From Polytrichum commune (taxonomy: Eukaryota; Streptophyta; Polytrichopsida; Polytrichales; Polytrichaceae): a stretch of DNA of 64,000 nt. Below, in pieces: positions 16,402 to 54,102 of this stretch. The notes beneath the pieces are model-generated. The model ran no database searches. It worked only from the letters and a program-made list of their open reading frames with translations, and had not been told where the DNA came from. The stretch spans positions 66,626,033 to 66,690,032 of the forward strand of contig OX485804.1 of the NCBI GenBank assembly GCA_950295325.1, read 5' to 3'. The translations under genes were made by a program, and so were the position numbers. The stretch's first letter is position 1, and every line of letters begins with the position of its first letter.

Positions 16402-16425
16402 AACACTATATTCGTTAAATTGAGA
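16402..16425 (+). repeat. Left terminal inverted repeat of the giant element (24 bp)
   Basis: It is identical to the reverse complement of 54079-54102. The next bases diverge (CTTTCTCTAG here versus TTTTTTGGGC at the other end), although GTCTCAAAT and ATTTTGAGAC blocks follow at both ends. Confidence 0.9.
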
Positions 16426-16932
16426 CTTTCTCTAGTCTCAAATTAATATGTGGATCAAACAACATTCCGTGTTCCGAAACTATATTGCGAACAATCTCAA
16501 ATATATTATATGTTCTAATATCCCAAATCTATTATGTGTGGACATAAGCACATATGGTAGAGCACTCAACACCAACTTCATCAACAAAAACACTTTGGGT
16601 AGAGCACTCCAAACTAGTTTCACCCAAGAAACATATAAAATGATTTCTATTAATAGCATGGTCAATAAAATATAGACATTGCAACATACAAAGTGCATGC
16701 AATAAATGCATTTTTCTTCAATGGAAAATTTAGTCCCAAACTTAATAAAAAAATGAACTTCACAATTGTATTGAAATATAGTAAATGGATATTCATCCAA
16801 CCCCAAACAATATAGCATTCGCAAGTTCTACCCAAACTTTGCCCCAAGTTTGAGGAGCACACATATGAGTAATATATATTCGTCGAATTACAGTTTACAC
16901 TATAATCATGCTAACACAATCCTACCAACTTC
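16426..16932. other. Left subterminal region of the giant element, non-coding
   Basis: This AT-rich stretch of about 500 bp lies between the TIR and the 3' end of the DUF7869-like gene, and presumably holds its 3' UTR. A small direct duplication of a GTAGAGCACTC block occurs at about 16556 and 16598. I see no gene. Confidence 0.5.
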
Positions 16933-18337
16933 TCATTCAACGTGGGTTGCTTCTTCTCCGATCCGAGCAAGGTTGTCTTTTGCAAAAGTTATGTACTTTT
17001 GAGGGATGGACACTGATCCACTATGATTTTTCCGTGGTTTCCATGCTATGAATATGGAATCTGTATCTACCCAAGATGGACCGTGCTCAGAATCCACCTT
17101 CCACCGAAAGTGTTGGTTTGTATCCCAGCCTGTATAATGCCGAACAACATCTTCATTCCGTGCTGTCGGTCGGTAGTACTCCACTTGTATTTGTCGAAAA
17201 TGAGGGCTGGAAGATACAAAATTTGGATTGGACAAAGCTCTTGCCACCCACACTGGCTTTGCATATGTCTCATCTCCAGGACGCAAAATGAGCATATAAC
17301 CTTCATGACAATCCACTGCAATGCGGAAAGATGGTGGCGGACGACTACTAGCAGGCCCAACGTAATGGTCGTCCATATCAAACTCCTCACGAACCTCTCC
17401 ATTACTCAAAAGACTAGCCTCCGAAGCTTGTACATCGATACGAGTTTGTGGCCAAAATCCGTGCCTCAAAGTATGAGGGCTATCTTGGTGGAGATCTGCC
17501 AAGGCCGCACGAACACGTGTCCAATAATGTATCCAACTCCCATAACGATGCCAACATGATCCGCCAACATCCGCTATCTTCAAACTCTCCCAATATTGAA
17601 TGAAGCCTGATATACCTTTCAAAATATCCTCCAAATTCTTCATGGCTATTGGCTTGCAAGGCCTAGGCTCTCCATCCGGTAACATGGTCTTCCCATCCGC
17701 ATCCACGCACCACACAAGGAGACCCTCTGGCGGGCTCCAGTCTTGTGTCGTGCACAACAACTTGTATTGCATGGCCGGGACACCATCGTCACGCATGTAG
17801 AACCAGAATTGTTGTGCCTTCGTATGGCCAATCAATCGATGAGCTCCACTTCGAATATAAGGTTCTATAAATGCCTTGAAGTCTGGCACCTCCTCAATCA
17901 TATGGGGGATGACGGGAACGTTCTCCAAATCCATGTACGACTTCATCAATAACGGGATTGTAGGAAAATCCTCCTCCCGCAACTTTATGCTCCACCGTCC
18001 AAATGATGCATCAATATCGTCGTGCGTGTGGCCTACCAATAGGAAGGACACAAAAACCTCCTTGAAAATGCCTTTCGCAACCAACAACGACCAATATGCA
18101 AATACATATCTACTTTTATTGTCCTTGGCACAATTGTCCAATTGGACACGCAAAGTGGGGGGCAACTTCTTGGCTATCACCGGTTCACTGGGTGGTTCGG
18201 GCAACGAATACAAGCATACATCTTTTCCATCCATCACTGCTTCATATAAAGGTGTTGAACCCGTGTTTTCAAATAACAATCCTGAAGAATAGGCTGGCGG
18301 TTTCTCTAAATCACGCAAAAGCCTTGCAAATGACCCT

Positions 18338-20008
18338 TGTGAGGCCAAACCCCCCACCCTTAAGCGTCCGTAGTCCGAGTAGTGGGTTTGGGCTCACATT
18401 CATCCGCGGTATTGGATTTGGACTTGGATGAGTCCATAGTGCAAGGTTCACCCTTCAAGTGGTCTTGGATTTAACTAGCTCCTTCATAAACCCAGCTCCT
18501 TCATAAACCCAGCTCCTTCATGAACCCAGCTCCTTAGCTTCTAACTAAACAAACTCAGGTCCTTCATAAACCCAGCTCTTTACTTTCTAACTAAACAAAC
18601 CCAGCTCCTTCATAAACCCAGCTCTTTACTTTCTAACTAAACAAACCCAGCTCCTTCATAAACCCAGCTCCTTCATGAACCCAGCTCCTTAGCTTCTAAC
18701 TAAACAAACCCAGGTCCTTCATAAACCCAGCTCTTTACTTTCTAACTAAACAAACCCAGCTCCTTCATAAACCCAGCTCCTTCATGAACCCACAACTTTG
18801 TAGTTGTAATCCCCAACTACCTCACTAATTATTCAAGCCCTTAACTAATCTTCCTACCTAATTTCCCTAATTCTACTAACAACCCCTTTCTAATCACACA
18901 ATTCTTCTCTAATCCTAAAATCCTAAAATCCTAGAGAGGAGAGGGGGAGAGAGAATTTCCTAACTTCACTAAGACTAACTAATCCACACAAGTATATTTT
19001 TGCACTCATCACAACATCAAGTGCTCAACTCTTAAACATGGAACTTGCAACCACGTGTATTCAAAACATGAACTTTAAGTACCACAAATTGGAATCATGA
19101 ATTAACTTTAAAATCCTTCACGTCAACACTAATTCTACCAAGAGGTCAAGCCCTCTTCAAGGCTAACAAGCCTTGGCTCTCAAACTAAAAACTAAGCACA
19201 CACATGTGCTCCAATATGGCTTCCCACACCCACACTTATAACTCGTGGGGTGCCTTGGAGCACAAAGGAAAGAGAGGATGAGTGAGGGAAGAATGAGGGA
19301 TTATATAGTAAGCTTGAGGGGGTGAGCACCCTCAAGGCTCACGATAAGCCCTTGAGATTTCCTCCTACTTAGTAGGCGCCAATCCTATCTTCTAAGCCTT
19401 CCTCCCTCAAATGATCAACAAGGATCCTAATTCGAACATTTAACTAGCCTTGGCTTTCTACCTACCACACTTTACCAAACTTGGGATGCTTCAACCCAAA
19501 CTTAGCCTCCTTCGCTTTCCGCCGCCATAACTTTCTCCCCTTACTTTCCCAAATCGTCGCTCACCACTCAATTCAAACCACGATGCTTAACTCGTGATTT
19601 GATTGGTGCTTTGAGAATTTGCTTATCCTCCACCTTGCATTCTTCCTTGGGCCTTCCCCATTAAGTGGCCATGATGAGGTGGTCCACTTGTGCGCTCCAT
19701 GTGATCCTCCATTCATCCCAATTCGAAAGCACTTGCCTCTTGAGTCACTTTGGTTGTCTCCATCCATTTGTACTAGCCTACTCACTAACTACTCAATCCA
19801 AGTTCTCCTTACCTATCCTCATTCACTCAAATCCTTCCGAAGGTAAAAACACAATAACAACTCACATCCTAGCCTCTTACAACATGGTACTTCTAAGACT
19901 AACATTTCACTCTTTTTATATTTTTGTGAAGTAACATGCTACTTCAAAGTGCATCAACTAACGTTTCAAGGGTCTAAGACTAAATGTGGGCACCCTTTTG
20001 GGCTCACA
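18338..20008. mobile_element. Solo-LTR-like element in the DUF7869-like gene, TSD ACCCT
   Basis: It begins TGTGAGGCCAAACC and ends TTTTGGGCTCACA, with ACCCT at 18333-18337 and 20009-20013. Both ends match the element at 7006-8788, so the two are the same family (1671 versus 1783 bp). Excision of it plus one TSD restores the coding frame of the host exon. Confidence 0.8.
18470..18795. repeat. Tandem repeat within the LTR-like element
   Basis: Units are built from AACCCAGCTCCTTCATAAA alternating with a TTTCTAACTAAACA-type spacer. The 7006-8788 sibling has a different tandem array in a similar position, so the arrays turn over quickly. Confidence 0.8.
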
Positions 20009-21883
20009 ACCCTATCGTGTGGTTTGAATCTGCTGGATACAAATCAAGAGCATAATGGGCAAACTTGACATCACCGTGTCCATGTGCAATCATTCCTACA
20101 ATGCCAACCCAAAGTGATTAGTACCTATGTATGTCTAAATCGTTTTGAATGAATCAATGTTCTCAAGTACATCACGGAATAAAATACAACAATATTTAGG
20201 GTATGTCATAACATTGTTTCGAAGATCACCTGTAACCGATACAGGCAACTTAAAAAACCCATCCGTGGCCTTGATTCGTTTTGCAAAACATGGGGAGGCT
20301 GTCTTGGCATGGTCCATTTTGTCATGGATGACCGTAAGAACTTCCAAGGGCCTGGAGATGGACAAAGCTCTATTTGTGTAGTAATCATTACGGTGTGCCT
20401 CTTGAATGTTTACGTGCTTGAAATAGTTCAATTGATGCACCGCAAACGACTCGGTACCCATCGTGTGTGCATCCCGAAGGCGCTTCAACTTCTCGCAATT
20501 AGAGCACCTTGCAAATTTGTCCCCTCGTCTTTTTGTAATGTATTCGCTAAAGTTTGCTTTCTTGATTGCACTCAATTTTGACGATGAAATTGGCTCCAAC
20601 CCAATCTTCTCGCCAACTGCATTTACATCCAACAATATGTCATCCATTTTGTGCCTGTGGGAAGAACTTTCTCCACAACCTTTTCACCAGTTGTGATTGT
20701 GCGTGTTTTGTGCGGCATTGCATCGGCAAGCGGGACAATGATGGTTGCTAGAGTGGCCGTTGCTTGCCTTGTTGCTTTCCTAGGTTTCTTTAAACCCACG
20801 TTCCCATGGTGACGGGACCGGCGGCCTTCCTTGGCATAAGCAGCTTGTCTATAAAAGTCCGCTTTCGACACACCATGAATGGTGTACCATGCCTTGCAAC
20901 ACACGTCTATGCTCTCAATGGTGATGACCTTGCGACCCGCCCCATTCACATGTATCGCCCTATGCACATCAAGTTTTTTGGTGGATCTTAGACGGAAATC
21001 ACCAAGCCACATTTCTTCGCGGATGGCCTTCAATTTATCCCGGGGAAACAATTGGCAACAACGATGCACACAACAATCCTTTGTGGCAACTTCTCTAATG
21101 GACTCCTCCCCGAGCAACCTTTGACGTTTACAATCAGTTGCAGACGGAGCAGGACGTGCCAATGTATCGTACTATCTTTGACCCTTGCGTGGCCGCATGT
21201 TTGATTGCTGCTCTTTTTCGATTTGCAAGTGTCGTTGCTCATGTTCACACAAACTAACTCCATCAATCGTGACATTCCTCAATGGCCACCTCCGGAGGGA
21301 GAACCTATGAGTGGGATCCACCTCGGAATGAACGAACGACTCCAATATGACAACCCCAACGTCCTCGGTGCCAAACGGGTTTTCATCAATGCAATCTTGT
21401 GGATGGGTGTTGTGACAAATCCCCTCTGCCACAACAACTCCACTGTCATTAAGAAGTACCACCTCCAAATTCACCCATGAAGCCCTTGAGAGTCCCGTAC
21501 ATTCAGTAATGGGACATTGCGGTACGGAAGGCGAAGGTATATCCAAATGATCTTCATCTGCACTGTCAGCCAAAGTATCCTCCCCGACAATGTCTATCTC
21601 ATCCTCAGATGCAGATGGCGAAGTGGCCATATCTTTAGATGACCAATCCCCTCTTTCACTAAACCCATTCATTCTGCCTACACACATGAACATTGAACCT
21701 TATCAAGAAACCACAAAAATTGTAGGTTCCAATCGAATAATACAAAAACCATCTTATATAAAAAATATTGCAAATACTCAGTGTTCATACATGTTCGTAT
21801 GACTGCTATGCCATTGGCTCTGTAAAGGTTTGGGTTGGCCAGTGGACACACTATCATTTAGAGCCCATCCACACGGTGGGTCT

Positions 21884-23092
21884 GGGTTTGGGTCGACCTA
21901 CCCAAACCTTGTGGCACGATGGGATCATGGTCATCCAGACTCCATCCAAACAGTGGGGATAAATTGGGTCGAGCGACCCAAACGTTTTCGCAAGATGGGT
22001 TCAGGCTCATCACAGAGAGCACCCACACAGCGGGGATGGATTGGGTAGACCGTCCCAAATTATGTAAGGGCACTGGGATGGGTCAAACCTAGTACATGCC
22101 CACTGTGGGATAAGGTTTGGGTCGACCGACCCAAACCTTATGGGGCAGGAAGGGCTCAAAGTCCACCCTAGTACCTGCCTCACGTGGGGTGGGTTTGGGT
22201 CGACCGACCCAAACCTTCAGGGGCAGGATGGGCTCCGTGTGCACCCTAGTACCTGCCTCATGTGAAGGTGGGTTTGGGTCGACCGACCCAAACCTTCAGG
22301 GGCAGGATGGGCTCCGTGTGCACCCTAGTACCTGCCTCATGTGAAGGTGGGTTTGGGTCGACCGACCCAAACCTTCAGGGGTAGGATGGACTCCGTGTCC
22401 ACCCTAGTACCTGCCTCATGAGGGTATAGGTTTGGGTCGACCGACCCAAACATTGAGGGGCAGGATGGACTCCGTGTCCATCCTAGTACCTGCCTCATGA
22501 GAGTATAGGTTTGGGTCGACCGACCCAAACATTGAGGGGCAGGATGGGCTCAGTGTGCACCCTAGTACCTGCCCCATGTGAGGGTGGGTTTGGGTCGACC
22601 GACCCAAACCTTGAGGGGCAAGATGGACTCCGTGTCCACCCTAGTACCTGCCTCATGAGGGTATAGGTTTGGGTCGACCGACCCAAACCTTGAGGGCCAG
22701 GATGGGCTCCTTGTCCACTCTAGACCCTGCCTCACGAGGGGATAGGTTTGGGTCGACCGACCCAAACCTTGAGGGCCAGGATGGGCTCCTTGTCCACTCT
22801 AGATCCTGCCTCACGAGGGGATAGGTTTGGGTCGACCGACCCAAACATTGAGGGGCAGCATGGGCTCCGTGCGCACCCTAGTACTTGCCCCATGTGAGGG
22901 TGGGTTTGGGTCGACCGACCCAAACATTGAGGGGCAGGTTGGACTCCGTGTCCACCCTAGTACCTGCCTCATGAGAGTAAAGGTTTGGGTCGACCGACCC
23001 AAACCTTGAGGGGCAAGATGGACTCCTCAGATGATCAGGGTCAGGCTGAAACCCGCCCACACTAGCGGAGGGGTTTGGGTCGACCGACCCAA
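21884..23092. repeat. Array of about 16 palindromes in 79-bp tandem units
   Basis: The half-site GTTTGGGTCG and its reverse complement surround a 2-bp centre, almost always AC here. Twelve or so units from about 22112 to 23000 recur every 79 bp, with a GC-rich spacer of the type GGGGCAGGATGGGCTCC. The first few units (21884-22060) are degenerate. The array lies upstream of the DUF7869-like gene and between the two divergent genes, where a shared regulatory region or transposase-binding array would be expected. Confidence 0.9.
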
Positions 23093-23099
23093 ACCTGAT

Positions 23100-27198: not shown

Positions 27199-27371
27199 GA
27201 CCGACCCAAACTCTGCAGCTGGTTGGGTTCGAACGACCCAAAACCTGCAGCCGGTTTGGGTCGCTCGACCCAAACTCTGCAGCTGGTTTGGGTCGCTCGA
27301 CCCAAACTCTGCAGCTGGTTTGGGTCGCTCGACCGAAACTATGCAGCTGGTTTGGGTCGCTCGACCCAAAC
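27199..27371. repeat. Palindrome cluster, centre CT, 32-bp period
   Basis: Full sites start at 27254, 27286, 27318 (one mismatch) and 27350, spaced by a CTCTGCAGCTG-type linker. A variant with centre AA is at about 27222. All four full sites share centre CT. Confidence 0.85.
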
Positions 27372-27629
27372 TCTGCAACCTACAAATCCAATATCCCAAG
27401 ATAAACATCCTTCCCACCATCAACAAGAAATTATATTCAAATGGCTATAATTTGAAATCGTCTGATATTTGCTGGCATGTCCACATACGTCCAGCGCGGC
27501 TCTAGAAGGTCACCAAAAATTGCTCTCATGTTGGATAATTTGACCACTACACAATATTCAATATATTCATATTCTTAAGACCCGAACTCTACCAATAATT
27601 CTTATACGATTAGGCTATTCGAGGCTTGG

Positions 27630-27737
27630 GTTTGGGTCGGTCGACCCAAACCTATTCATGATGGCCAGTAGAGCACCCTTCAATTCGCACTGATGTTCAA
27701 TCCAAGTTGAAAAACTTTGGGTCGATCGACCTAAACT
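27630..27737. repeat. Two isolated palindromes just upstream of the ParB-gene start
   Basis: One exact site with centre GT is at 27630-27651. A second with centre AT and one mismatch is at about 27715-27737, ending 25 bases before the ATG. Confidence 0.8.
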
Positions 27738-27762: not shown

Positions 27763-29112
27763 ATGGCCACTAAAAAGAGACCTGGAGAGAGGTGGTTCAT
27801 GCTCGCCCCAGACCACCTTTGGGAGGAGTACGAAACTCCACAGGACGACTCATACGTCCCAAAGGATGGGATTGTTCTTGCGTGGTCCGTTCAGGTTGTG
27901 AAAGCCTCCCAGTACAAGCTCTTGTTCGTGGTGAAAGTGGGGACCCACGAGCAACACACCTGGGCAACGCTGACGGGATGGGAGGTTGCTTCCGTCCAAG
28001 CTCTCGGGGAGCACGTTGACGTTATTCTAGAGAACTCCGCAGTGCAGAACGTGCATATGTTCATGCACCAATTCTCCGAGGCTTTCGACCCCCTATACGC
28101 CAAGGAGACGTGCGTTGACCCGGAGATAATAAAACCGGAGACCATCTTCATAGATGGCACTGTATCGAACACCAAGGTCGCTAGCAGGTTCACAAAACTG
28201 AAACAAGCGATCACGGTTTTGAATAAAGCGTTGCAAAGCAAACCAAAAACGCAACAACCTGTCAGGCGGAAGGCCAAGACAGAAGAAGGAGCAGGTTCCT
28301 CCAGACCCCAATCTGTGAGGATTCCGCTGGCGGTTCCGGCAGATTCTAGAAGACCGAGCACTACCTCGACTCCGGCTGACAGCGAGACGCCAACTCCTTC
28401 AGGAAGCCGGCTGACGACCCCCTCCGGGAGCCGGCAGACGACCCCGTCGAAAAGGGCAAGAGAGTCATCAGTCATGACCACCGAGCCAGTTTCGCCAGAG
28501 TTGCGGATGCCCAAGCCTGGCCAAGAGGTTGATGCTGGGGAAATTCAAAAAATCAACGACAATTTTGAGACGAAATGCCTCCATTGCTTCTTCATGGGCA
28601 GGGACTTCAAGTTCGAGGTGAACATTGCACAATGCCACCTTGCGCCACCTGAAAAGTGTGTCCGAGCCAAGGAGGATGCCTATGTCGACTGGATGGTCGC
28701 TCAAATCTTGGGAGGGCAGTTCAAGGACGACAGGCAGACAATTGTCGTGATGCCCCAGGGGCTAAAAAGAATGCCTACGGCTGATATGTGGCCGGCGATT
28801 TCTAAAGGAGATTTCTGGCTGATTGACGGCCAGCACAGTGTAGAGGCCTCCAAAAAAATCCAGCTGATGACTGAATGGGACGACCCCAACAACCAGAAGG
28901 AGAAGCTGAAGGTATGGAAGGCACTGGTGGTTTGGTCGGACAACGAGACCGTCCTCAGTGACATCTCCAGGTTTTTCAACATGGGGAATAAAAAGAGGGC
29001 GTATCAGGCATCCTGGATTAGGAATATAATGGCCTCGAGGGATGTGTGGGAGTTCTACGGCAGGCCGCCCAAGGAAAGGGAGAATGCAAAAGACAAGAAC
29101 CCAAAATGGGAG
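27763..29112 (+). CDS. Exon 1 of the ParB/MTase/HAD gene: ParB-like domain
   Basis: The ATG at 27763 follows CTTACAG. The exon encodes 450 residues and ends in phase 0 at a consensus donor (GAG, then GTGAGTAAG). An N-terminal region of about 165 residues (unrecognised) precedes a Ser/Thr/Pro-rich linker (about residues 170-245) and a globular part with KGDFWLIDGQHSVEASKKI at about residues 348-366. That is the IDGxxRxEAxKxL signature of ParB/Srx-fold nuclease-like domains, with the usual Arg replaced by Ser. In phages and bacteria ParB-like domains are often fused to DNA methylases, the arrangement seen here in the next exons. Its biochemical role in this element is unknown. The exon is free of stops. 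Confidence 0.7.
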
Positions 29113-29120
29113 GTGAGTAA

Positions 29121-29414
29121 GTTTGGGTCGATCGACCCAAACTCTTGTATTGTTTTATTTTCTTCCCAAGTTTTGTAGTTTGGGTCGATCGACCCAAACT
29201 CTTGGATTCATCAGATTTAAAGTTTGGGTCGATTGACCCAAACTATTGGCATGTTTTATAGTCTTCATCAGATTTAAAGTTTGGGTCGATCGACCCAAAC
29301 TATTGGCATGTTTTATAGTCTTCATCAGATTTAAAGTTTGGGTCGATCGACCCAAACTATTGGCATGTCTTATAGTCTTCATCAGATTTAAAGTTTGGGT
29401 CGATCGACCCAAAC
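29121..29414. repeat. Six palindromes filling intron 1, centre AT
   Basis: Sites start at 29121, 29178, 29222, 29279, 29336 and 29393. The third has centre AT with a one-base mismatch (GATTGAC). The last four follow a 57-58 bp period with a linker of the type TATTGGCATGTTTTATAG. The first site begins 8 bases after the GT of the intron. Confidence 0.9.
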
Positions 29415-29506
29415 TATTGGCATGTCTTAAACTGCTGTTCCATTTTTTTCATGATGTGTTCTCTAACATATGTTCTTGACTTCATGTTCAAGACTTCAAA
29501 TACCAG

Positions 29507-39371: not shown

Positions 39372-39539
39372 ATTCCCCCTCTTCTATTAACCAAGCACAA
39401 GTACAAGACTAGGAACTCATCTCATACTTTTCTCTTTGCACCACTAAAGTTTGGACTTTATTCCCTCAAGCCAAAGAACAAGTGCATGTTGTGGAGCAAT
39501 TAACCTCGAAGCTATGTTTGCTACTAGAGTCTCTCCCCC

Positions 39540-41228: not shown

Positions 41229-42600
41229 TTGCGCTTGTATGTCAAAATTCTCTTAGGACACATTGTCCATGTAGACCTTTGCTTTGTGCGACCCCAAATA
41301 GTGTCGCCACATCTTCAAGCAATGCACTACGGCAAAGAAGTTCTTTGTCATGAGTTGGTTGTCTTCTTTGACAACCATCGAGCTTCATGCTCCCATAGGC
41401 AATGGCCATCCATCTTACCCATAATCCACCATTGGCAAAGGCACTCACCCCCGTATGCACCTCAAAAGGTTTGTCAAGCTCCGCGAACTTGAGCACGGGC
41501 GGCGAAGAGAACTTGGTGTTAAGCTCCCCAAAGATTCGTGACAAACATCATCCCACTCTTGGGATAGCCATTTCTTCCACAAGTCGCACAAGGTGGGACA
41601 ACCATCGAGCTTCATGCTCTCATATGCAATGGCCATCCATCTTGCCTCAACATCGCCAATGGTAAAGTCACTCGCCCCCGTATGCACCTCAAAAGGTTTG
41701 TCAAAATCCACGAACTTGAGCACAGGCGGCGAAGAGAACTTGCTCTTAAGCTCCTCAAAGACTTGGTGGCAAGGCTCATCCCACTCTTGGGATAGCCATT
41801 TCTTGCACAAGTTGGACAAGGTCGGACAACCATCGAGCTTCATGCTCTTATATGCAATGGCCATTTTTTATTTTTATTTTTATTTTTTTTACATCAACAT
41901 CCGCCAATGGTAAAGTCACTCGCCCCCGTATGCACCTCAAAAGGTATGTCAAACTCCGCGAACTTGAGCACGGGCGGCAACGAGAACTTGGTCTTAAGCT
42001 CCTCAAAGACTTGGTGGCAAGGCTCATCCCACTCTTGGGATAGCCATTTCTTGCACAAGTTGGACAAGGTCGGACAACCCTCGAGCTTCATGCTCTTATA
42101 TGCAATGGCCATCCATTTTGCCTCAACATCCGCCAATGATAAAGTCACTCGCCCCCGTATGCACCTCAAAAGGTTTGTCAAATTCCACGAACTTGAGCAC
42201 GGGCGGTGAAGAGAACTTGCTCTTAAGCTTCCCAAAGGCTTTGTGGCAAGGCTCATCCCATTCTTGGGATAACCATTTCTTGCACAAGTCGGACAAGGTT
42301 CGACAACCATGAAGCTTAATGCTCCCATAAGCAATGGTCATCCATCTTGGATCAACATCCGCCAATGGTAAAGTCTTTTGCCTCCATGTGCATCTCAAAA
42401 TGCTTATGAAAACCCGGAAACTTAACCACATCTTGTGAAGAGAACTTGCTCTTGAGCTCCCCAAAGTCTTGGTGACAATGTTCATCCCACTCTTGGGATA
42501 GTCATTTTCCTCAATAAGTTGAATAAGGTCCTAGCAACCTTTAATAACTCTCGAATGAAGTGGTGGTAGTAGTTGGCTAGGCCAACAAATGACCTAAGCC
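41229..42600 (-). pseudogene. RNase H region of the outer element with five tandem copies of its N-terminal part
   Basis: A segment with SSPPVLKF and FEVHTGASDF (RNase H start) recurs at about 227-243 bp spacing, marked by TCCCACTCTTGGGATAGCC at about 41545, 41785, 42027, 42260 and 42487. The outermost copy joins the connection sequence VGLANYYHHFI (about 42570). No copy keeps an undamaged frame through the whole RNase H. Confidence 0.75.
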
Positions 42601-42699
42601 ATTTTTGAATGAAGGGCCAATTCTCCTTTCGGATTGCCTTGACATTCTTCATGTTCGTCCACCAACTTCCTTTGTCACCACATACCTCAAGAACTCAAT

Positions 42700-44010
42700 C
42701 TCTCGTTGAGAAAAATTATTTTTCACTCCTTGGCGGTAACTTTTTGGGCAACACATTGGTGAATACATCCTTGTATCTCACCAACATCCCACCAATGTGG
42801 TTTGGGGGAGGCCCATCTTTCCTAGCCTCCCCATACGTTCCTTGGAGTTGCTCCAATTGAACCACGACCATTATGTTTTCTATTTTTCATTTGGTCCATT
42901 AAGACCAAATTCAACTTGGGTCCTCCTACCATAGGAGTCCTTGTCAATTTGAACATCAATTCTTTGCCATTGTGACACATCATAATGCACCGCAAGCACA
43001 CCGGCTTGCACCTCACATCTATCATGTGAGTTTGAAAGAAGGCGGCCTTCACAATGACATGCATTTCATCTATTTCACATGGTGTGAAATTTTGACAAAA
43101 ATCAAATGTCCCACATTCAAAGGTTACATGCATCGCGGCCTCCTTTGTCTCATGCGGTTCGCCCTTTCCAAACCGCACCTTGGTGGGCTTGCCCGCTCTA
43201 TCAATCGGCAAGCCCCAACTCCCTTGTGAGTTTTGGGCTCAAGAAGGAATGGCTTGCCTCTTTGTCAACGCATGAGACATTTCTCCCATTCATTTGAGCC
43301 TCAAGGTACAAAAGACTTGGCCTCAGCTTAAGGCTACTAGCCTTGGCCAGAATGCCATCGTCTTACATTCGGTCCGCGGCACAAGCATTATTTGGCGTGG
43401 TACCTATCTCCCCTCAACGTCCATTGTTGTAAGGCACCGCCAAATTTCTTATTGGGGTCATCGGCCTTAATCCTCGTGGCAATTTTGATGATCCCCGCCA
43501 CAACCTCAATAAACTTTTGGAAATTTGAACTTGGTATTCACCACCCGCTTTTGAAACCCACCTAAAATGATGTATTTGTTAGAAAACCCGTTCATCTAAG
43601 ATGTACAATTCATTTGGGTGTGAAATTCGCGCATATACGCCTTAAGAAGCCCGGACGCCTCATTTCCACCAAATTCATTCCAACATCAATACCTTCCAAG
43701 CATTTCGAATTGGAATTTCAATCCAACATTAATGCCCTCCAAGGTTTTGGGTGCATTCGGTATTCTAGGCCCCAAATGCTTTTTGAGGTGTGCGGGAGCC
43801 CTTTCAAAGGACTCCACCATTTTCCTTACCGAATCCACCATCATGCCCACCATTGTCATTAGAATCAATGGTATGGTCAAATTCCATTTACACATGATCT
43901 TTGTTCCAATTTGAGCCTCACAACCTTTTGGAAACCCCGGGTCACCATCATAACCCGCTTATTTCATAGCCATGCTTCCCTCAAAGTGCTAGCTCAAAAA
44001 TTGGAACCCT
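42700..44010 (-). pseudogene. Gag and protease remnants of the outer element; RT palm absent
   Basis: The frame 43211-42822 corresponds to the protease/pre-RT region (EIDEMHVIVKAAFF, CKPVCLRCIMMCHN). It is followed by HIGGMLVRYKDVF, the usual start of gypsy RT, after which the sequence passes within about 150 bp to the RT C-terminal connection. The central palm with YxDD is missing. Gag-like fragments at 43614-43895 are unrecognised. Confidence 0.6.
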
Positions 44011-44048
44011 GCTCTGATACCACGTGTTGCAACCCTTGCTAGCCCCCT

Positions 44049-45021
44049 TGTCGCGCACCTCTCCATGAGGAGTGCCCGAAACACCATGGGCACAAGGGGG
44101 ACCCCGGAGTGACACCCGGGACTTGTGGCGCCGTTGGTGAGAGGGCCCAAGTGATCCTAGTGTGGGTGAGGGCCCCGGGCGTTGGGAACGCCTCCCACCC
44201 ACGAAGACTAGGAGGCACAAGGGTAAGGCCACGAGCTATGCGTAGCTCATGGCGTGGTGATTCTAGAAAGCTCAAGAACACCTCAATCGGAGGTGTGAGC
44301 TAGGAGTTATGGCCATTTGAGTGGGGCGCTGTCCCGGGACAGCGCCCTGGTACAGCAGTGCCTGGGAGTGATTCCCGGGACTGCCAAGGTTCAAACAGGC
44401 ATAACTTCCTCAAGACTTGCCCGAATGGGGCAAGTGAGGAGTCCATCGGCATCTACGTGAAGCGTAGATGAAGATGGAGTGGTTGGTTGTTATGATCAGA
44501 CATCATACAAGGAAGTTATGATGGTCTGAAGCTGCTAGTGGGTTCTAGGCCCAGCAGCTAAAGGAAAATGTCCACTTGGCCCCAACTCTTGGTAGAGAGA
44601 CAAGAGGTTGGTTGACGGTGGGGTAGGGGCCCCGCGTGAAGTCCTAGAGGCTTATATGGGTGAGGTGGTGTGGCCTCACCCACCCGAGGCCGAACGGCAA
44701 GGCCTCCATGGGCTTTGGCCTATTGTGAGGCCATAGTTGCCTAGTATGGTTCGGGTTGTTGTAGTGTTGCTCCGGCAACGCGATGATCAACATAGGATTG
44801 GACTTCCATGGATGGAAGTCCACATTGGGGAAATGGGTTACCGATTAAGGGGTGAGTCCCGAAAGCAAAGTAGGAGGGTTGGTTCCCTCCTATGAACTAT
44901 TGGTCCGGGGTAAGAGGAGCTAACCATTAGCATGGCGGAATGCGAAGGGTTAGCGACTCGTAACCTTTGCTAGAATTGAAAATTGGCAAGATTATTAAGG
45001 GACCTAGCAAGGGTTGCGACA
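44049..45021 (+). repeat. 5' LTR of the inner element
   Basis: It starts TGTCGCGCACC and ends GGTTGCGACA. It carries the same hairpin set as the other family LTRs. Confidence 0.97.
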
Positions 45022-45061
45022 CTTGGTATCAGAGCAGGGTTCCAAGTTTTGAGCTCGCACT

Positions 45062-46630
45062 TTGAGGGAAACATGGCTATCAAAAATGCGGGTTATGATG
45101 GTGAGCCCGGGGTTTCCAAAAGGTTGTGAGGCTCAAATTGGAACAAGGATCATGTGCAAGTGGAATTTGACCATACCATTGGTTCTAATGACAATGGTGG
45201 GCATGAGGGTGGATTTGGTAAGGAAAATGGAGGAGTGCTTTGAAAAGGGCTCCCGCAAACCTCAAAAAAACATTTGGGGCCTAGAATACCGAATGCACCC
45301 AAAACCTTGGAGGGTATTAATGTTGGATTGAAATTCAATTCGAGATGCTTCGAAGGTTCGGATGTTGAAATGAACTTGGTGCTAATTAGGCACCCATGGC
45401 CTCTTAAGGCCTATGTGCGCTATTCAAATGCACAAATGAAGGATACACCTAAAACGGACGAGCTTTCTAAGAAATGCATCGTTTTAGGTGGGGTTTTAAA
45501 AGCGGGTGGTGGATGCCTTGTTTAAGTCCCCAAGGCTTCTTGAGGACATGGTGGGGACCATCAAGTTTGCAAGAGCATTGAAGCCGATGGTCCCAAAGAG
45601 AAGTTTGGCGGCGCATCACCACAAGTGGCTTTAGCCAAAGTAGGTCCCAAAGAAATGAGTGCAAATTGTTTGGTCCATTTTACTTAGGCAAAACATGTTG
45701 GTGCCGCAGATGGAATGTTGAAAGGTGGCTTTATGCTTCCAAAGCAAATCATACTTGTGCCGCGGACAGAATGTTGGGAGGTGGGTTTGTCCTACCAAGG
45801 CAATTCATGTTCGTGCCGCGGACGGAGTGTGGGAAGGTGGCTTTGTGCTACCAAGGCAAAACATGTTTGTTTTGCGGACAAACTATTAGAAATTGGTTTT
45901 GTGGCACCAAACCAATTTGTCCCGCGCACGAAATGTTTGAAGTTGGCTTTGCGGACCAAGCCAAGCCAAGTTGCCGAGGACCAAATGTAAGACGATGGCA
46001 TTGTGGCCAAGGCTAGTAGCCTTAAGCCGAGGCCAAGTCTTTTGTACCTTGAGGCTCAAATGAATGGGAGATATGTCTCATGAGTTGACAAAGAGGCAAT
46101 GGACTCTTTCATGAGCCCAAAACTCACAAGGGAGTTGGGGCTTGCCAATTGATAGAGCGGGCAAGCCCACCAAGGTGCGGTTTGGAAAGGGCGAACCGCA
46201 TGAAACAAAGGAGGCCGCGATGCATGTAACCTTTCAATGTGGGACATTGGATTTTTGTCAAAATTTCACACCAAGTGAAATAGATGAAATGCATGTCATT
46301 GTGAAGGCCGCCTTCTTTGAAACTCACATGATAGATGTGAGGTGCAAGCCGGGTGTTTGCAATGCATTATGATGTGTCATAATAGCAAAGAATTGAAGTT
46401 CAAATTGACAAGGACTCCTATGGTAGGAGGACCCAAGTTGAATTTGGTCTTAATGGACCAAATGCAAAATATAAACATAATTGTCGTGGTTCAATTGGAG
46501 CAACTCCAAAGAACGTATGGGGAGGCGAGGAAAGATGGGCCTCCCCCAAATCACATTGGTGGGATGTTGGTGAGATACAAGGATGTATTCACCAATGTGT
46601 TGCCCAAAAACATTACCGCCAAGGAGTGAA
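45062..46630 (+). pseudogene. Gag, repeat-rich and protease region of the inner element
   Basis: The open frame at 45062-45525 is interrupted and unrecognised but mirrors the outer element. At about 45690-45985 a roughly 60-bp unit repeats about five times, built on GTGCCGCGGAC, an AATGTTG block and GTGGCTTTGTG. The 46142-46629 frames match the protease/pre-RT region and end with HIGGMLVRYKDVF. Several stops are present. Confidence 0.6.
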
Positions 46631-46639
46631 AAATAACTT

Positions 46640-47870
46640 TGCTCAACGAGAGATTGAGTTCTTGAGGTATGTGGTGACAAAGGACGTTGGTGGATGAACA
46701 TGAAGAATGTCAAAGCAATCCAAAAGGAGAATTGGCCCTTCATTCAAAAAAAATGCTTAGGTCATTTGTTGGCCTAGCCAACTACTACCACCACTTCATT
46801 CAAGAGTTTTTGAAGGTTGCTAGGACCTTAATCAACTTATTGAGGAAAATGGCTATCCCAAGAGTGGGATGAGCCTTGTCACCAAGCCTTTGGGGAGCTC
46901 AAGAGCAAGTTCTCTTCACAAGATGTGGTTAAGTTTCCAGATTTTCGTAAGCATTTTGAGGTGCACATGGAGGCGAAGGACTTTACCATTGGCGGATGTT
47001 GATCCAAGATGGATGACCATTGCTTATGGAAGCATTAACCTCCATGGTTGTTGAACCTTGTCCGGCGTGTGCAAGAAATGGTTATCCCAAGAGTGGGATG
47101 AGCCTTGCCACAAAGCCTTCGGGAAGCTTAAGACCAAGTTCTCTTCGCCGCCCGTGCTCAAGTTCGTGGAGTTGGCAAACCTTTGAGGTGCATACGGGGG
47201 CGGGTGACTTTACCATTGGCGGATGTTAAGGCAAAATGGATGGCCATTGCATATAAGAGCATGAAGCTTGATGGTTGTTCAACCTTGTCCAACTTGTGCA
47301 AGAAATGGCTATCCCAAGAGTGGGATGAGCCTTGCCACCAAGTCTTTGAGGAGCTTAAGACCAAGTTCTATTCGCCACCCGTGCTCAAGTTTTTGGAGTT
47401 TGACAAACCTTTTGAGGTGCATACGGGGGCGAGTGACTTTACCATTGGTGGATGTTGATGCACGATGAATGACCATTGTATATGGGAGCATGAAGCTCGA
47501 TGGTTGTCCGACCTTGTGTGACTCGTGAAAGAAATGGCTATCCCAAGAATGGGATGAGCCTTGTCACCAAGTCTTTGGGGAGCTTAAGAGCAAGTTCTCT
47601 TCGCCGCCCGTGCTCAAGTTCGCGGAGCTTGACAAACCTTTTGAGATGCATACGGGGGTGAATGACTTTGCCAATGGTGGATTTTGTGTAAGATGGATGG
47701 CCTTTGCATATGGGAGCATGAAGCTCGATGGTTGTCAAAGAAGACAACCAACTCATGACAAAGAACTTCTTTGCCGTAGTGCATTGCTTGAAGATGTGGC
47801 GACATTATATGGGGTCGCACAAAGCAAAGGTCTACATGGACAATGTGTCCTAAAAGTATTTTGACATACA
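46640..47870 (+). pseudogene. RNase H region of the inner element, four tandem copies; RT palm absent
   Basis: After the RT start the sequence goes straight to VGLANYYHHFIQEF (about 46770-46810). Then come four copies of the RNase H N-terminal segment, marked by ATCCCAAGAGTGGGATGAGC near 46855, 47081, 47308 and 47535 (about 227 bp apart). The YxDD-containing part is missing, exactly as in the outer element. Confidence 0.75.
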
Positions 47871-48099
47871 AGCATAAGTGAACGCCAAGTCATTGCGGAG
47901 GCATGATAGTTTGGCGCTTATGAAGGTGGATTTAATCCACAAACCGGACCGTGGAAATGTGGTGCCGGATGCGCGAAGTAGACCGGAAGAGTTCCAAGCA
48001 ATGAGAACCATCCAAACCTTGTGGCTAATGTGTGCCGGCAAAGGAAACTTGTGATGCAAGATACGGGAGGGGTAAATTAACTACCCCAAAGCACAAAAG

Positions 48100-49120
48100 C
48101 TTTTAGGTGAGCTTCGCAAGAGCAAGGTGCTCAAAGAGGTTAAGTTGGTGGACGGATTGTTCAAGTGCAAACAAAGTCGGGTATATGTGCCACAAGGCAA
48201 GTTGAGGCTATCGGTTTTGAAGGAGGAATATGATAGTCCTATTGCCGGCCATAGAGGAGAAAGAAAAAACCGCCATAGAATGGTGTCAAAGAGGTACCAT
48301 TGGCGGTGCATAAAGGAAGATATAGCCCACTTTGTGAAGGCTTGAATCAAAGTGCAAAGTGAACCGAGCCTCTTACCAAAAGCAAGGCGGCTTCTTGCAA
48401 CCGTTGCCTATCCCGTTGGCGCCATGGCATGGTATGTGCATGGACTTGATCACAAGTTTGCCGGAGTCACATGGGTATGATGCCATCTTGTTGATGGTAG
48501 AGCGGTTTGCCAAGTGGGCACACATGGTGCCGATTGTGGGAACCGCCACCGCGTTGGAGACCGCATAGCCTTTTCTCAAAGGATGGTTGAGGCACCACGG
48601 GTTGCCAAGAGTGATTGTGTGGGATCAAGATCCAAAGTTCACAAGTGCATTTTCAATGCATTTCTCTAAGGAGGTCGGAATGAAACTAAGGTTTAGCACG
48701 ACCTTGCATTCCCAAATGAATGGGAAATCGGAACGTGTGAATGGAGTCTTGAAGCAATACTTGAGGAACTTGGTGGGGGCGGACCAAGGAGATTGGGCGG
48801 ACTATGTGGGTCGAGCGGAGTGTAATTGCAATGTAGCCACGCACTTGGCTACCAAGGGGTGGTCTTTGGTGGTGGCTTATGGAGTGGATGCGCTCCAACC
48901 TATTAACCTAGCTCTCGAGGGGGCACATTCAACACTAGAGTTCAACCAAGATGGTGAGGACTTGGCCAAGAATGTAAACAAGTCTTGGAGATGACCAAGT
49001 TGTTGGTGGAGAAAACCCGAAGGTGCTACGGAGTGCAAGTCAATGCCGGAAGACGCGAAGTGGAGAATGAGGTGGGCCAAAAGGTGTTGTTGAATGTGAA
49101 CAACTTCACTTAGCCGGAAG
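48100..49120 (+). pseudogene. Integrase of the inner element
   Basis: The zinc-binding part includes YVPQGKLRLSVLKEEY and AGHRGERKN. The core has MCMDLITSLPESHGYDAI, IVWDQDPKF and NGKSERVNGVL (D-D-E all present). Breaks occur near 48345 and 48566. Confidence 0.8.
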
Positions 49121-49199
49121 GCCTCACTCCAAAGTTCATGTCCAAAATTGGAGCTCCGTTTCCCATTGTGGAACAAGTGGTCAAGGACATATATAAGTT

Positions 49200-49545
49200 G
49201 GAATTACCGCCGGAGATCAAAGTGCATCCGACATTTCATGTCTCATTACGAAAGTCATTTTAGGACGACACCTTGTGGCCCGATCACAAGCAAGTGATTA
49301 GGCCACCTCCCCACCTTGTGGAGGTCATTTGGAACATGAGGTAAGAGGGCATCCTCAAGTGTAGGAAGCCCAAGTGAAAAGGAAAGAAAAAATACAAAGG
49401 AGTACTTGGTGAAATGGTGAGGATACCATGAGAAAGAAACCGCTTGGGTGGCGGCAAGAGACATGGTCAACACCAATGAATTGGTGAAGCACTTTGGAGA
49501 AACTAAGGCTAAGGATTCCAATAAAATGAAGCGTAGGCATTGATG
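49200..49545 (+). pseudogene. Chromodomain remnant of the inner element
   Basis: The translated frame, with many TGA and TAA codons, still shows HPTFHVSLRKSF followed by GILKCRKPK, KKYKGVLGEMV and an AARDMVN-type helix. This pattern is a chromovirus chromodomain. Most stops fit G-to-A change of TGG or CGA codons. Confidence 0.65.
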
Positions 49546-50357
49546 AGGACATCAATCTCCTTTAGTGGGGGAGAGACGCTAGTAGCACACTTAGCTTCGA
49601 GGTTAATTACTCCACAACATTAACTTGTTCTTTGGCTTGAGGGAATAAAGTCCAAACTTTAGTGGTGCAAAGAGAAAAGTATGAGATGAGGTCCTAGTCT
49701 TGTACTTGTGCTTGGTTAATGGAAGAGGGGGAATAGATATGCCAAACTAGGTTGGGTAAGCCGAGTAATTGGGGGCCATGGCTTGGAGGGGCCTTGGATA
49801 AAACCAAGAAACTTCTTAGTTGTGGGCTTGTCCGGGCGGGGACAAGGTGATGGCGCGTGCTCATAAAAGTGCTACCCGCGAGCTAATGAAAGTTGGCGCA
49901 TGGGAGTCATGAACCCATGTCTCGAAAGAGCAAAGTGGGAACCGAGTCGGGCGGGACTTGGCATCACCCCCGTGCGATCGAGGCGTGGCTTAACAATGGA
50001 AAGTCATCTCGGAGTTGCAACCGAGACAACTTAGTGGAAGCGTTGAGGTCTCGCCTAGATGTGTCACGTTAGGCTAGTGGAGCCTAACGGGGGAGGCCCC
50101 AAAGGAGGGGCAACCCAAGTGAGTCCTAAAGTAGGTGGGTCTAGTATAGGTTAGGTCCTTGGATGAGAGATCCAAGGTCGCTAACGGACCACCTAGGAAC
50201 GACACCTTTGGGCCTATGCCAAATTTGAAGATGCATTGTGGGGGTCGCGCCCTAAGGTAAACACAATGCCGCACCATAGAGGATGGCAACTTGAGAATTG
50301 GTGTGCCGACTACGAGTATAGTCGATGAGGGCATCGACTCCGTTTGGTGGGGGTGAG

Positions 50358-51330
50358 TGTCGCGCACCTCTCCATGAGGAGTGCCCGAAACACCATGGGC
50401 ACAAGGGGGACCCCGGAGTGACACCCGGGACTTGTGGCGCCGTTGGTGAGAGGGCCCAAGTGATCCTAGTGTGGGTGAGGGCCCCGGGCGTTGGGAACGC
50501 CTCCCACCCACGAAGACTAGGAGGCACAAGGGTAAGGCCACGAGCTATGCGTAGCTCATGGCGTGGTGATTCTAGAAAGCTCAAGAACACCTCAATCGGA
50601 GGTGTGAGCTAGGAGTTATGGCCATTTGAGTGGGGCGCTGTCCCGGGACAGCGCCCTGGTACAGCAGTGCCTGGGAGTGATTCCCGGGACTGCCAAGGTT
50701 CAAACAGGCATAACTTCCTCAAGACTTGCCCGAATGGGGCAAGTGAGGAGTCCATCGGCATCTACGTGAAGCGTAGATGAAGATGGAGTGGTTGGTTGTT
50801 ATGATCAGACATCATACAAGGAAGTTATGATGGTCTGAAGCTGCTAGTGGGTTCTAGGCCCAGCAGCTAAAGGAAAATGTCCACTTGGCCCCAACTCTTG
50901 GTAGAGAGACAAGAGGTTGGTTGACGGTGGGGTAGGGGCCCCGCGTGAAGTCCTAGAGGCTTATATGGGTGAGGTGGTGTGGCCTCACCCACCCGAGGCC
51001 GAACGGCAAGGCCTCCATGGGCTTTGGCCTATTGTGAGGCCATAGTTGCCTAGTATGGTTCGGGTTGTTGTAGTGTTGCTCCGGCAACGCGATGATCAAC
51101 ATAGGATTGGACTTCCATGGATGGAAGTCCACATTGGGGAAATGGGTTACCGATTAAGGGGTGAGTCCCGAAAGCAAAGTAGGAGGGTTGGTTCCCTCCT
51201 ATGAACTATTGGTCCGGGGTAAGAGGAGCTAACCATTAGCATGGCGGAATGCGAAGGGTTAGCGACTCGTAACCTTTGCTAGAATTGAAAATTGGCAAGA
51301 TTATTAAGGGACCTAGCAAGGGTTGCGACA
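50358..51330 (+). repeat. 3' LTR of the inner element
   Basis: It is 973 bp and appears identical to the 5' LTR wherever compared. Confidence 0.97.
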
Positions 51331-51335
51331 CCCCT

Positions 51336-52283
51336 TAGCAATCTTGCCAATTTTCGTTTCTAGCAAAGGTTACGAGCGCTAACCCTTCGCATACCGCCAT
51401 GCTAATGGTTAGCTCCTCCTACCCCGGACCTTATAGTTCATAGGAGGGAACCAACCCTCCTACTTTGGTTTCGGGACTCACCTCTTAATCGGTAACCCAT
51501 TCCTAGATGTGGACTTCCATCCATGGAAGTCCAATCCCATGTTGATCATCGCATTGCCGGAGCAACACTACAACAACCCGAACCATACTAGGCAACTATG
51601 GCCTCACAATGGGCCAATGCCCATGGAGGCCTTGCCGTTCGGCCTCGGGTGGGTGAGGCCACACCACCTCACCCATATAAGCCTCTAGGACTCTACGCGG
51701 GGCCCCTACCCCACCGTCAACCAACCTCTTGTCTCTCTACCAAGAGTTGGGGCCAAGTGGACACTTTCCCTTAGCCGCTGGGCCTAGAAGCCCCTAGCAG
51801 CTTCAGACCATCATAACTTCCTTGTATGATGTCTGATTCTACCAAGCGACCACTCCATCTTCATCTACGCTTCACGTAGATGCCGATGGACTCCTCACTT
51901 GCCCTATTCAGGCAAGTATTGACCAAGTTATGCCTGTTTGAACCTTGGCAGTCCCGGGAATCACTCCCAGGCACTGCTGTACCAGGGCGCTGTCCCGGGA
52001 CAGCGCCCCACTCAAATGGCCATAATTCCTAGCTCACACCTCCGATTGAGGTGATCTTGAGCATTCTAGAATCACCACGCTATGAGCTACGCATAGCTCA
52101 TGGCCTTACCCTTGTGCCTCCTAGTCTTCGTGGGTGGGAGGCGTTCCCAACGCCCGGGGCCCTCACCCACACTAGGATCACTTGGGCCCTCTCACCAACG
52201 GCGCCACAAGTCCCGGGTGTCACTCCGGGGTCCCCCTTGTGCCCATGGTGTTTCGGGCACTCCTCATGGAGAGGTGCGCGACA
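51336..52283 (-). repeat. Main part of the outer element's 5' LTR
   Basis: It continues the 24 bases at 44025-44048 after the inner insertion and ends GTGCGCGACA. Confidence 0.95.
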
Positions 52284-52288
52284 CGCTC

Positions 52289-52414
52289 TGCGGAAGCGGA
52301 CTGCCCGTAAACAATTTTGTTAGGAACAATCCGATAGGCGAGAGATACTTGGATCCACGAGACCATTTGTACAGAGAGTTGTTATCTCACGCGAAATTTA
52401 ACAAGCTCATTTGA
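52289..52414 (+). CDS. Exon 4, second part: HAD C-terminal segment
   Basis: With one CGCTC copy retained this continues the HAD exon without a frame change, adding GSGLPVNNFVRNNPIGERY and ending KFNKLI before a TGA at 52412-52414. A donor GTAAAC in phase 0 lies shortly after the junction (about 52300) and could instead splice to the exon at 52574. Which of the two is used cannot be decided by eye. Confidence 0.65.
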   Translation, partial: CGSGLPVNNFVRNNPIGERYLDPRDHLYRELLSHAKFNKLI

Positions 52415-52573: not shown

Positions 52574-52927
52574 CGTTTGGAGCCCTCGATTGACATCGTC
52601 AGCGAGTCAGAGTTGGGGAGCTTCTTCTACGAGACCGTTTACGATGCCGCGTCAACCATTGACTACTCCAAGGAGCCTATTGACGCCGGCGTCGTCGATA
52701 GCCCCCCACCCAAGCAAATCTTCCGGCGATCTGCGTCCCCGTCGCCGCTCAAAGGCATAAATCGCAAATGTGTCCGGACATCCCCCTCTCGGCCCGGCGG
52801 CAGTAGTACACCTCAACGGCGGCTGCGGATGGACGCTCGGCCAACGAAGAGTAGAACCCTTCCTATTCCTTTGCGGGACGCATTGCCCCTCCTCGCCGAC
52901 TCCGACGGGAACGCCCCTGGTGACAAG
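52574..52927 (+). CDS. Exon 5 of the ParB/MTase/HAD gene
   Basis: The acceptor GCTCCAG and donor GTGAAA bound a 118-codon exon, phase 0 at both ends. It encodes an acidic start, the segment YDAASTIDYSKEP conserved in the second copy at 11.8-12.1 kb, and a basic Ser/Pro-rich tail. No domain is recognised. A CA/TG microsatellite (52440-52467) lies in the preceding intron. Confidence 0.6.
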
Positions 52928-53058
52928 GTGAAACCCCCTCCCCCCCAACATGGTTAACCGCGCATTACAATCATCCCGCACTTAAAAAATGAACGTGTGA
53001 CACGTTTGGGTCTTCCTCCCTAAACTAACACGTGTGTTCTTGCATTCACGCGTTGCAG

Positions 53059-53190
53059 GTTGCTCCCGCCCGTAAACCTATGTGGGATGATCCGTCCGTC
53101 GAGTTGGAGCGTTTCTACTCAATGACCAGAAATGCAAGACAGTCCACTTCATCGTATTCGAATTCTTCGTCGTATAATTCGGGCGGCTGA
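53059..53190 (+). CDS. Last exon of the ParB/MTase/HAD gene
   Basis: The acceptor CGTTGCAG opens a frame of 43 residues ending SSSYNSGG and TGA at 53188-53190. It has an acidic MWDDPSVELERFYSM segment and a Ser-rich tail. An alternative 3' exon starting after ATTTTCAG (53259) would read into an EAK-rich helix. Confidence 0.55.
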   Translation, partial: VAPARKPMWDDPSVELERFYSMTRNARQSTSSYSNSSSYNSGG

Positions 53191-54078
53191 CGGAATCCAA
53201 AATGTGTTATTGTTGGCAGTCACCCCAAGAATGGCTATAGTCGCGGGGCGGAGATTTTCAGGAATGTTGAAGCAATGCGAGCAAAAGAAGCCGCAGCAAA
53301 AGAAAAAGAGGCAAAAGAAAAAGAGGCAAAAGAAAAAAAAGCAAAAGAAAATGAAGCAAAAGAAAAAGAGGTAGTCTCCGAGGCTAGATAGTCCATAGTA
53401 GGCGTAGGGTTGTAGGCCATAGGCAAGAACATTTTGGGTCGCACTATCCAATGGATGTGTGGTGTTAGCATGCTATGCATTTTACGTGCCATACTTTGTA
53501 TGTTTTTTTTTGCAATAATATAAGTGTCACATGATTTTGCCTTCAATATGGTCTAAGGTTTGGAGTGCCTTATTGTGTGCATTAATATGAATGTTTTAAT
53601 ATTTCCCCTTCAATAAGATCTATGGTTTGGATTGCCCTACCTAAACCATATCCATACAAGCTCTCATATTTTGTGTGCATTAATATGAATGTTTTAAGAT
53701 TTTCCCTTCAATAAGATCTATGGTTTGGATTGCCCTACCTAAACCATATTCATACAAGCTCTCATATTTTGTGTGCATTAATATGAATGTTTTAAGATTT
53801 TCCCTTCAATAAGATCTATGGTTTGGATTGCCCTACCTAAACCATATTCATACAAGCTCTCATATTTTGTGTGCATTAATATGAATGTTTTAAGATGTCC
53901 CCTTCAATTTGGTCTAAGGTTTCGATTGCCCACCCTAAACCATCACAAATATGAGTTATTAATGGGGTTCTTGGTCTAAACACCCGCTTCAAAGTGTTTG
54001 CATCTTACAACTTTCACCAATATGTGTTCCATTTATCCTTGTTCTTATTTCTATGAATGTCTCAAAATGCCCAAAAAA
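53191..54078. other. Right subterminal region of the giant element
   Basis: It holds an EAK-encoding repeat (about 53280-53375, units of GCAAAAGAAAAAGAG) that in one frame gives a charged single-helix-type sequence ending at a stop near 53391. A 98-bp tandem array and a palindrome half-site near 53430 follow. Confidence 0.55.
53575..53940. repeat. 98-bp subterminal tandem repeat, about 3.7 copies
   Basis: The marker GTGTGCATTAATATGAATG recurs at 53575, 53673, 53771 and 53869. Each unit contains ATGGTTTGGATTGCC and the near-complementary CCTACCTAAACCAT, a diverged inverted pair that recalls the palindrome family. Confidence 0.85.
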
Positions 54079-54102
54079 TCTCAATTTAACGAATATAGTG
54101 TT
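54079..54102 (-). repeat. Right terminal inverted repeat of the giant element (24 bp)
   Basis: It is the perfect reverse complement of 16402-16425, followed by the TCTT duplication at 54103-54106. Confidence 0.9.

Follow-up and report, generated by a model that had tools for sequence, protein, structure and literature searches.

Sola transposons have been described (PMC10741241, like all the papers cited here drawn on in excerpt) as elements with a DDD transposase, a 4-bp target-site duplication (TSD) and terminal inverted repeats (TIRs) of 11-1124 bp, with very variable ends. They measure 2-9 kb, with some above 15 kb, and they are present in the moss Physcomitrella while being seemingly uncommon in flowering plants; Sola1 in particular is listed from Physcomitrella (PMC9033089). 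In dictyostelids, the Sola-type elements known as Sola2-Fanzor (PMC3627910) make AT-rich 4-bp TSDs, have TIRs of 12-13 or 21 bp and encode a transposase (888 aa in one family) to which an accessory gene, Fanzor1, has been added. Here, we compare these systems with E1, an element of the moss Polytrichum commune lying in a 64,000-nucleotide stretch (the window) of contig OX485804.1. We read E1, with a probability of roughly 0.78, as one copy of a multi-copy cut-and-paste family whose elements measure about 17-18 kb in this seedless plant and which most likely belongs to the Sola superfamily, as a Sola1-like member. The family is mobile: it has exact ends, mostly 4-bp duplications, many copies and a conserved second gene.

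E1 extends from 16402 to 54102. Its two TIRs are identical at 24/24 bases, the mismatch beginning at base 25, and TCTT borders it on both sides, so that the exact ends announced in the preliminary description, made from the sequence of the window alone, are borne out. With up to 3 mismatches, this TIR has 3 real matches in the window, against a mean of 0.00 in dinucleotide shuffles. The full span is 37,701 bp, of which 20,109 bp belong to three secondary insertions; once these are subtracted, the native element measures about 17.6 kb, and the epithet 'giant' that it had received was owed to these later insertions of long terminal repeat (LTR) type. E1 interrupts an open reading frame (ORF) of a retroelement, and joining the flanks gives a single frame of 310 codons, from 54830 across the junction to a stop, instead of the 249 codons read with E1 in place. 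This frame is that of the downstream reverse transcriptase (RT) ORF, and a stop codon lies between both; the in-frame repair of a gypsy polyprotein that had been proposed thus holds for the frame and stops short of the RT ORF. As previously described, E1 holds two divergent genes that both read outward: gene 1, with a DUF7869 domain, and gene 2, with a ParB/sulfiredoxin (Srx)-like and a HAD domain. Scans for tRNA and Rfam families gave no match.

The own genome (408 Mb, 64 contigs) was searched with the first 299 bases of E1. This gave 933 first-look candidates, and the best 40, window copy included, were all full-length matches at 99-100% identity (40/40). In the 28 left ends that were inspected (the window copy, loci L003-L009 and twenty short stretches), the TIR is found at the expected base and the flanks are all different. 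The far end was sought for 11 copies in the stretch lying 10-30 kb beyond the left one (for L003, 14.7-34.7 kb), and a right TIR was found in 8 of them, giving elements of 14.8-19.7 kb (16,964, 17,604, 19,476, 19,734, 14,787, 17,506, 17,672 and 17,919 bp). Identical 4-bp duplications border 6 of these 8 copies (TTAT, ATTA, TGGA, ATAG, TGTT, ATTT), and the chance of at least six out of eight is about 2e-13 at a background agreement of 0.0045. Matches to gene-2 exons were obtained in 9 of the 11 copies, with 74-99% protein identity (exon 3 left out of this range); L006 and L007 gave no gene-2 match at E<=1e-20 within the stretch fetched. One copy, L004, is complete: it has 17,604 bp between ATTA and ATTA and carries both genes in the same divergent order. 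Neither a lack of other loci nor TIR pairs devoid of duplications was what the genome returned, and the claim of a real TIR transposon is upheld by these loci. Two observations weigh against our reading: 2 of the 8 paired copies have no perfect duplication (ATTC/ATTA, one base off; TTCT/GTTA, no match), and 3 of the 11 copies (L006, L007 and L008) had no right TIR within the stretches fetched.

The 99% identity of the best left ends alone does not date the family, since the right ends of the copies have 86-99% identity to that of E1. L004 is free of the stop and frameshift of the window's gene 1, yet its own gene 1 is interrupted at least twice and its gene 2 has breaks, and among the nine copies with gene 2, L005 is the sole one open in all four exons tested. 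That most copies read are broken, together with the divergence of the right ends, weighs against the youth of the family. Beside L003, a 257-bp element (L010 5358-5614) has TIRs related to those of E1 and a TGGT duplication, and it is likely a non-autonomous derivative of the family, i.e. a miniature inverted-repeat transposable element (MITE). A further TIR-like end lies near the right end of L005.

The window itself contains a second member, E2, which the preliminary description had missed. It is recognized by a TIR with 2 mismatches (22/24) at 11086-11109, for which shuffles give no equivalent, and the DNA past this TIR aligns with the right end of E1 at 81% identity over 90 bp. Pieces of E2 between 11458 and 11983 match the 3' exons of E1, and its decayed HAD exon aligns along the entire E1 exon at 66% identity (530/809 columns), continuous through the position of the 15.5-kb nest that splits the latter. 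Judging from E2, the HAD gene and the right end have probably been travelling together for long. As E2 parts are found on both sides, the retroelement hosting E1 sits inside E2 (its repeats, 12178-12615 and 61453-61891, are 99% identical), and the nest was built in the order E2, retroelement, E1, three LTR-type insertions. These three all have TG..CA ends and 5-bp TSDs, and they break up both E1 genes. Scored by alignment across the insertion junctions in sister copies, the site of the first is empty in the only copy fetched there (1/1, L004), and those of the second and third in all the copies with a match across the junction (7/7 and 8/8, respectively), the third being empty in E2 as well. 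The third insertion is a large inverted arrangement of gypsy-type elements, with arms of up to 1.4 kb at 97%.

The DUF7869-like gene that had been reported is confirmed by a Pfam match (see the table), and gene 1 of the window has an in-frame TAG (21172-21174) and a frameshift near 20640. The predicted structure of the DUF7869 protein has an RNase H-like topology, in agreement with its best structural matches, and three aspartates, D430/D552/D594, putatively the catalytic triad, are near-invariant across the homologues; a Foldseek search against the PDB gave no match at E<=0.001. Because of this fold and these aspartates, the DUF7869 protein is very probably the transposase of the E1 family, with a catalysis that is predicted, and the suggestion already made in this sense is thereby supported. 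It would be very unlikely for DUF7869 to be a passenger in an element mobilized by another protein. Such a view can invoke the fact that catalysis is predicted rather than observed and that the two copies read both have a broken gene 1, but it has to face the RNase H-like fold and conserved aspartates, and the lack of any other transposase domain in the Pfam scan of nine ORFs. Homologues among the matches listed also number at least 111 for DUF7869 against at least 15 for gene 2, two figures from different queries and without genomic context. With DUF7869 as the transposase, the protein would fold as an RNase H-type DDD enzyme, pair both 24-bp ends, excise the element and join it to a target site whose strand breaks are staggered by 4 bases. 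DUF7869 is found in mosses, bivalves, a coral, a nemertean and a sea urchin, with relatives in Physcomitrium. In Pfam, it is a domain 'of unknown function'; if it is a DDD transposase, with a family of many copies sharing their ends as the sign of mobility, this would explain its multiplicity and turn many annotated 'genes' into transposons. One contig filed under a cyanobacterial metagenome-assembled genome (L001, 1-4327) consists of plant-like DNA; it carries an intact DUF7869 gene, with an ORF of 944 residues, and dyads of its own.

Several superfamilies can be set aside. Ginger does not fit: no match to the gypsy-integrase-like rve domain was found in the gene 1 pieces (E up to 1) or in four homologues (E up to 0.1). 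CACTA/En-Spm elements are two-gene plant transposons whose subterminal repeats are bound by an element protein, and they have CACTA/G ends and a 3-bp TSD; E1 resembles them by its two genes and repeated motifs, but it differs by its AACAC ends and its 4-bp TSD. The TSD of hAT elements is 8 bp long. That of Mutator has 7-12 bp and that of Tc1/mariner is TA (PMC10741241), so that 4-bp TSDs of differing sequence do not fit hAT, Mutator, Tc1/mariner or CACTA.

The traits described for Sola that are open to testing, on the other hand, are found here: a 4-bp TSD (TCTT in the window, perfect in 6 of the 8 further copies and imperfect in 2), a TIR length of 24 bp, a core of 17.6 kb within a family of 14.8-19.7 kb, a predicted DDD enzyme of RNase H fold (the triad being our assignment) and relatives in mosses. 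The preliminary description had left the superfamily unassigned, and this is probably wrong because these traits fit Sola as it is presented in PMC10741241 and PMC9033089. We thus regard the E1 family as quite likely Sola, and probably Sola1-like within it, a likeness that is drawn from described traits and not from transposase sequence. Alternatively, the DUF7869 transposase could be unrelated to Sola and E1 a cut-and-paste element of a superfamily that has no name yet, which is rather unlikely: DUF7869 is not mentioned in the literature searched, but every listed Sola trait open to testing was found, and Physcomitrium, which has DUF7869 relatives, is the source of the reported Sola1 (PMC9033089). 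Most likely, E1 is an addition to the little-studied Sola group and does not call for a new one. A plant element so large and abundant, and whose ends are well kept, would also be a testable system for Sola transposition.

What sets E1 apart from the Sola descriptions excerpted here is its second gene and its element-wide 20-bp dyads, which they do not mention. Gene 2 was compared by hmmscan with Pfam (sets of 18, 9 and 6 aligned members), PHROGs (18 members) and NCBIfam (6 members), and by PDB profile searches. Of the three parts announced for it (ParB, methylase-like and HAD), two stand. The ParB-N/Srx fold is found together with a D-G-x-H motif, and 4 of the 18 members touch a PHROG ParB family, with E 0.03 at best; the NIF-type HAD domain is recognized at E=1.8e-14 (PF03031), its activity being uncertain since the motif reads DLNGV by eye. 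For the third, exon 3 gives no methyltransferase match in Pfam, NCBIfam or PDB profiles, and the predicted model is poor there; with no convincing match in PHROGs either, the methylase reading finds no support. The last exons (52575-53391) follow the HAD stop and finish in a KEKEAKEKE repeat, and they may belong to a third gene or to an alternative end of gene 2.

Gene 2 is unlikely to be a chance passenger, since 9 of the 11 copies keep it and so does E2, an old member. Speculatively, it could be an accessory gene, perhaps a regulator or an anti-silencing factor, as in other cargo-bearing transposons. It is not new in kind, because Sola2 elements with Fanzor are known (PMC3627910): these share with E1 the 4-bp TSD and the added gene, but the latter is not ParB/HAD, and they differ by their AT-rich TSDs and their TIR lengths. 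A second, DNA-related gene is also carried by the fungal DNA transposons that have a TET/JBP dioxygenase (PMC12730594), elements of other superfamilies and with other cargo. In the literature searched, we found neither a ParB/HAD gene nor dyad arrays reported from an element of this kind, which is no proof that there is no such report in print. As ParB suggests partition, the ParB/Srx-like fold could point to an integrated virus or plasmid remnant. This is extremely improbable: no relative of gene 2 or DUF7869 was found in viral contigs, nor of gene 2 in phages, BFVD gave none at E<=0.001, the nine ORFs scanned hold no replication or capsid domain, and it is largely refuted by the several copies that have fixed ends and 4-bp duplications. 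Searches of viral contigs with the TIR and the dyad were equally without relative.

The dyad, TTTGGGTCG-NN-CGACCCAAA (20 bp), has 32 perfect copies, all within 22.1-35.7 kb of the window. When up to 4 mismatches are allowed, the E1 core has 45, the insertions 1 and the flanks 0, against an expectation of about 0.25; with up to 5, these numbers become 46, 4 and 5, two of the flank matches (11267 and 11393) being within E2. The dyads, dozens in number, are restricted to the family. L004 has 44 dyads, 31 of them perfect. The arrays have periods of 79, 32, 57 and 35/36 bp, and the central pair varies from one to another (AC; CT/GT; AT; CT/TT/AG; GC/GT) while the 9-bp arms are constant. Between arrays, the spacers resemble each other no more than shuffled sequences do, so the arrays were not copied from a single one. 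In gene-2 homologues, peptides encoded by the dyad were counted with a strict pattern only (a loose one, reaching 14/15, was set post hoc and not used): they are present in 9/15, against 0.01 expected from shuffles, and in 0/111 DUF7869 proteins. Apart from one case in exon 4, they occur where the reading of the homologue enters intron 1 or intron 3. L001 has a different dyad, TTTAGCTCGA-N-TCGAGCTAAA. When up to 6 mismatches are allowed, this dyad has 10 sites against 0.04 expected, all outside the DUF7869 gene of L001 and on both sides of it. A conserved layout with a sequence changed symmetrically fits the site of a dimer that changes along with its protein.

We infer, less firmly than for the transposon itself, that the dyads may be binding sites of a dimeric element protein, most likely the transposase, as the different dyad of L001 flanks the DUF7869 gene on both sides. 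They could instead act in transcripts, by forming RNA hairpins or by signalling splicing or silencing, a possibility that we find doubtful. In its favour, each dyad is able to self-fold, and 37 of the 45 lie in the 5' regions (gene 1, 16; gene 2, 7) and in introns (6, 7 and 1, together 14), places that are mostly transcribed as far as transcript limits can be placed. Two more are in exon 4; against the RNA view, the remaining 6 are in subterminal or 3' regions, and those of L001 sit on both sides of the gene. Returning to DNA sites, a more tentative and rather improbable idea is a parS-like clustering, in which the ParB/Srx protein of gene 2 would load at the dyads and spread on or bridge the element. 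This might help a 17-kb transposon to hold its ends together, to amplify or to escape silencing; the dyad and its reader would change together, with one dyad per lineage, and a ParB-DNA system would have been domesticated by a eukaryotic transposon. The family would also be a test system for the roles of ParB-type domains in eukaryotes and for dyad arrays evolving with their binding protein.

Table. Coordinates in the window of E1, its genes, dyad arrays and insertions, and of E2
Feature	Position	Strand	Basis or remark
E2, older relative, TIR end and 3' part	11086..12072	+	right border (retroelement start) inferred
TSD TCTT, left copy	16398..16401	.	sequence comparison of flanks
Left TIR AACACTATATTCGTTAAATTGAGA	16402..16425	+	inverted identity to right TIR; same end in genomic copies
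Gene 1, DUF7869 transposase (putative)	16933..21663	-	PF25273 E=2.6e-37
Gene 1 pieces	21663-21175, 21171-~20640, ~20640-20230, 20095-20009, 18332-16933	-	start codon inferred by eye
Gene 1 intron	20229-20096	-	inferred by eye
LTR-type insertion in gene 1 (TGTGAG..CTCACA)	18338..20008	-	TSD AGGGT; sister copy L004 empty there
Dyad array 1, 79-bp period, 13 perfect dyads, all central AC	21887..23093	.	gene 1 5' region
Dyad array 2, 32-bp period and singles	27223..27735	.	gene 2 5' region
Gene 2 exon 1, ParB/sulfiredoxin-type domain, motif GDFWLIDGQHSVEA	27763..29112	+	
Gene 2 intron 1, holds dyad array 3 (57-bp period, central AT)	29113..29506	+	
Gene 2 exon 2	29507..29817	+	joined to exon 3 in 7/7 sister copies matching across junction
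LTR-type insertion in gene 2	29818..32771	.	TSD AGATG; empty in sister copies
Gene 2 exon 3, conserved region (first described as 'methylase-like')	32777..33781	+	
Gene 2 intron 3, holds dyad array 4 (35/36-bp period)	33782..34132	+	
Gene 2 exon 4, low-complexity; two dyads within coding sequence (FGSADPN)	34133..35596	+	
Gene 2 exon 5, NIF/FCP-type HAD domain, first part	36113..36799	+	PF03031
Gypsy-type retroelement nest, 15.5 kb, in gene 2 HAD exon	36800..52283	.	TSD CGCTC
Gene 2 exon 5, end	52289..52414	+	continues 36113-36799 beyond nest
Further exons, gene 2 or third gene	52575..53391	+	partly conserved in E2
Right subterminal degenerate dyads, three in 98-bp tandem array	53005..53943	.	
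Right TIR	54079..54102	-	inverted identity to left TIR
TSD TCTT, right copy	54103..54106	.	sequence comparison of flanks
E2 beyond retroelement, decayed HAD exon 62003-62764, runs off window	61892..64000	-	

The retroelement that hosts E1 (12073-61891) shows motifs that resemble those of DNA methyltransferases (DNMT) by eye (GGIGTGLAAV, FENVP), and it gave no DNMT match in Pfam. Its repeats look split, with 438-bp repeats near both ends and a 110-bp unit found twice near the left end. In the excerpt of PMC5890265, KnitGypsy-Dnmt3 of Klebsormidium is likewise a gypsy element with a DNMT-like region and repeats unlike ordinary LTRs; it differs in that the DNMT reading in the window comes from motifs by eye, without a Pfam match. 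Elsewhere in the window, a 72-bp tandem array of about 18 copies lies within long ORFs at 3493-4778.

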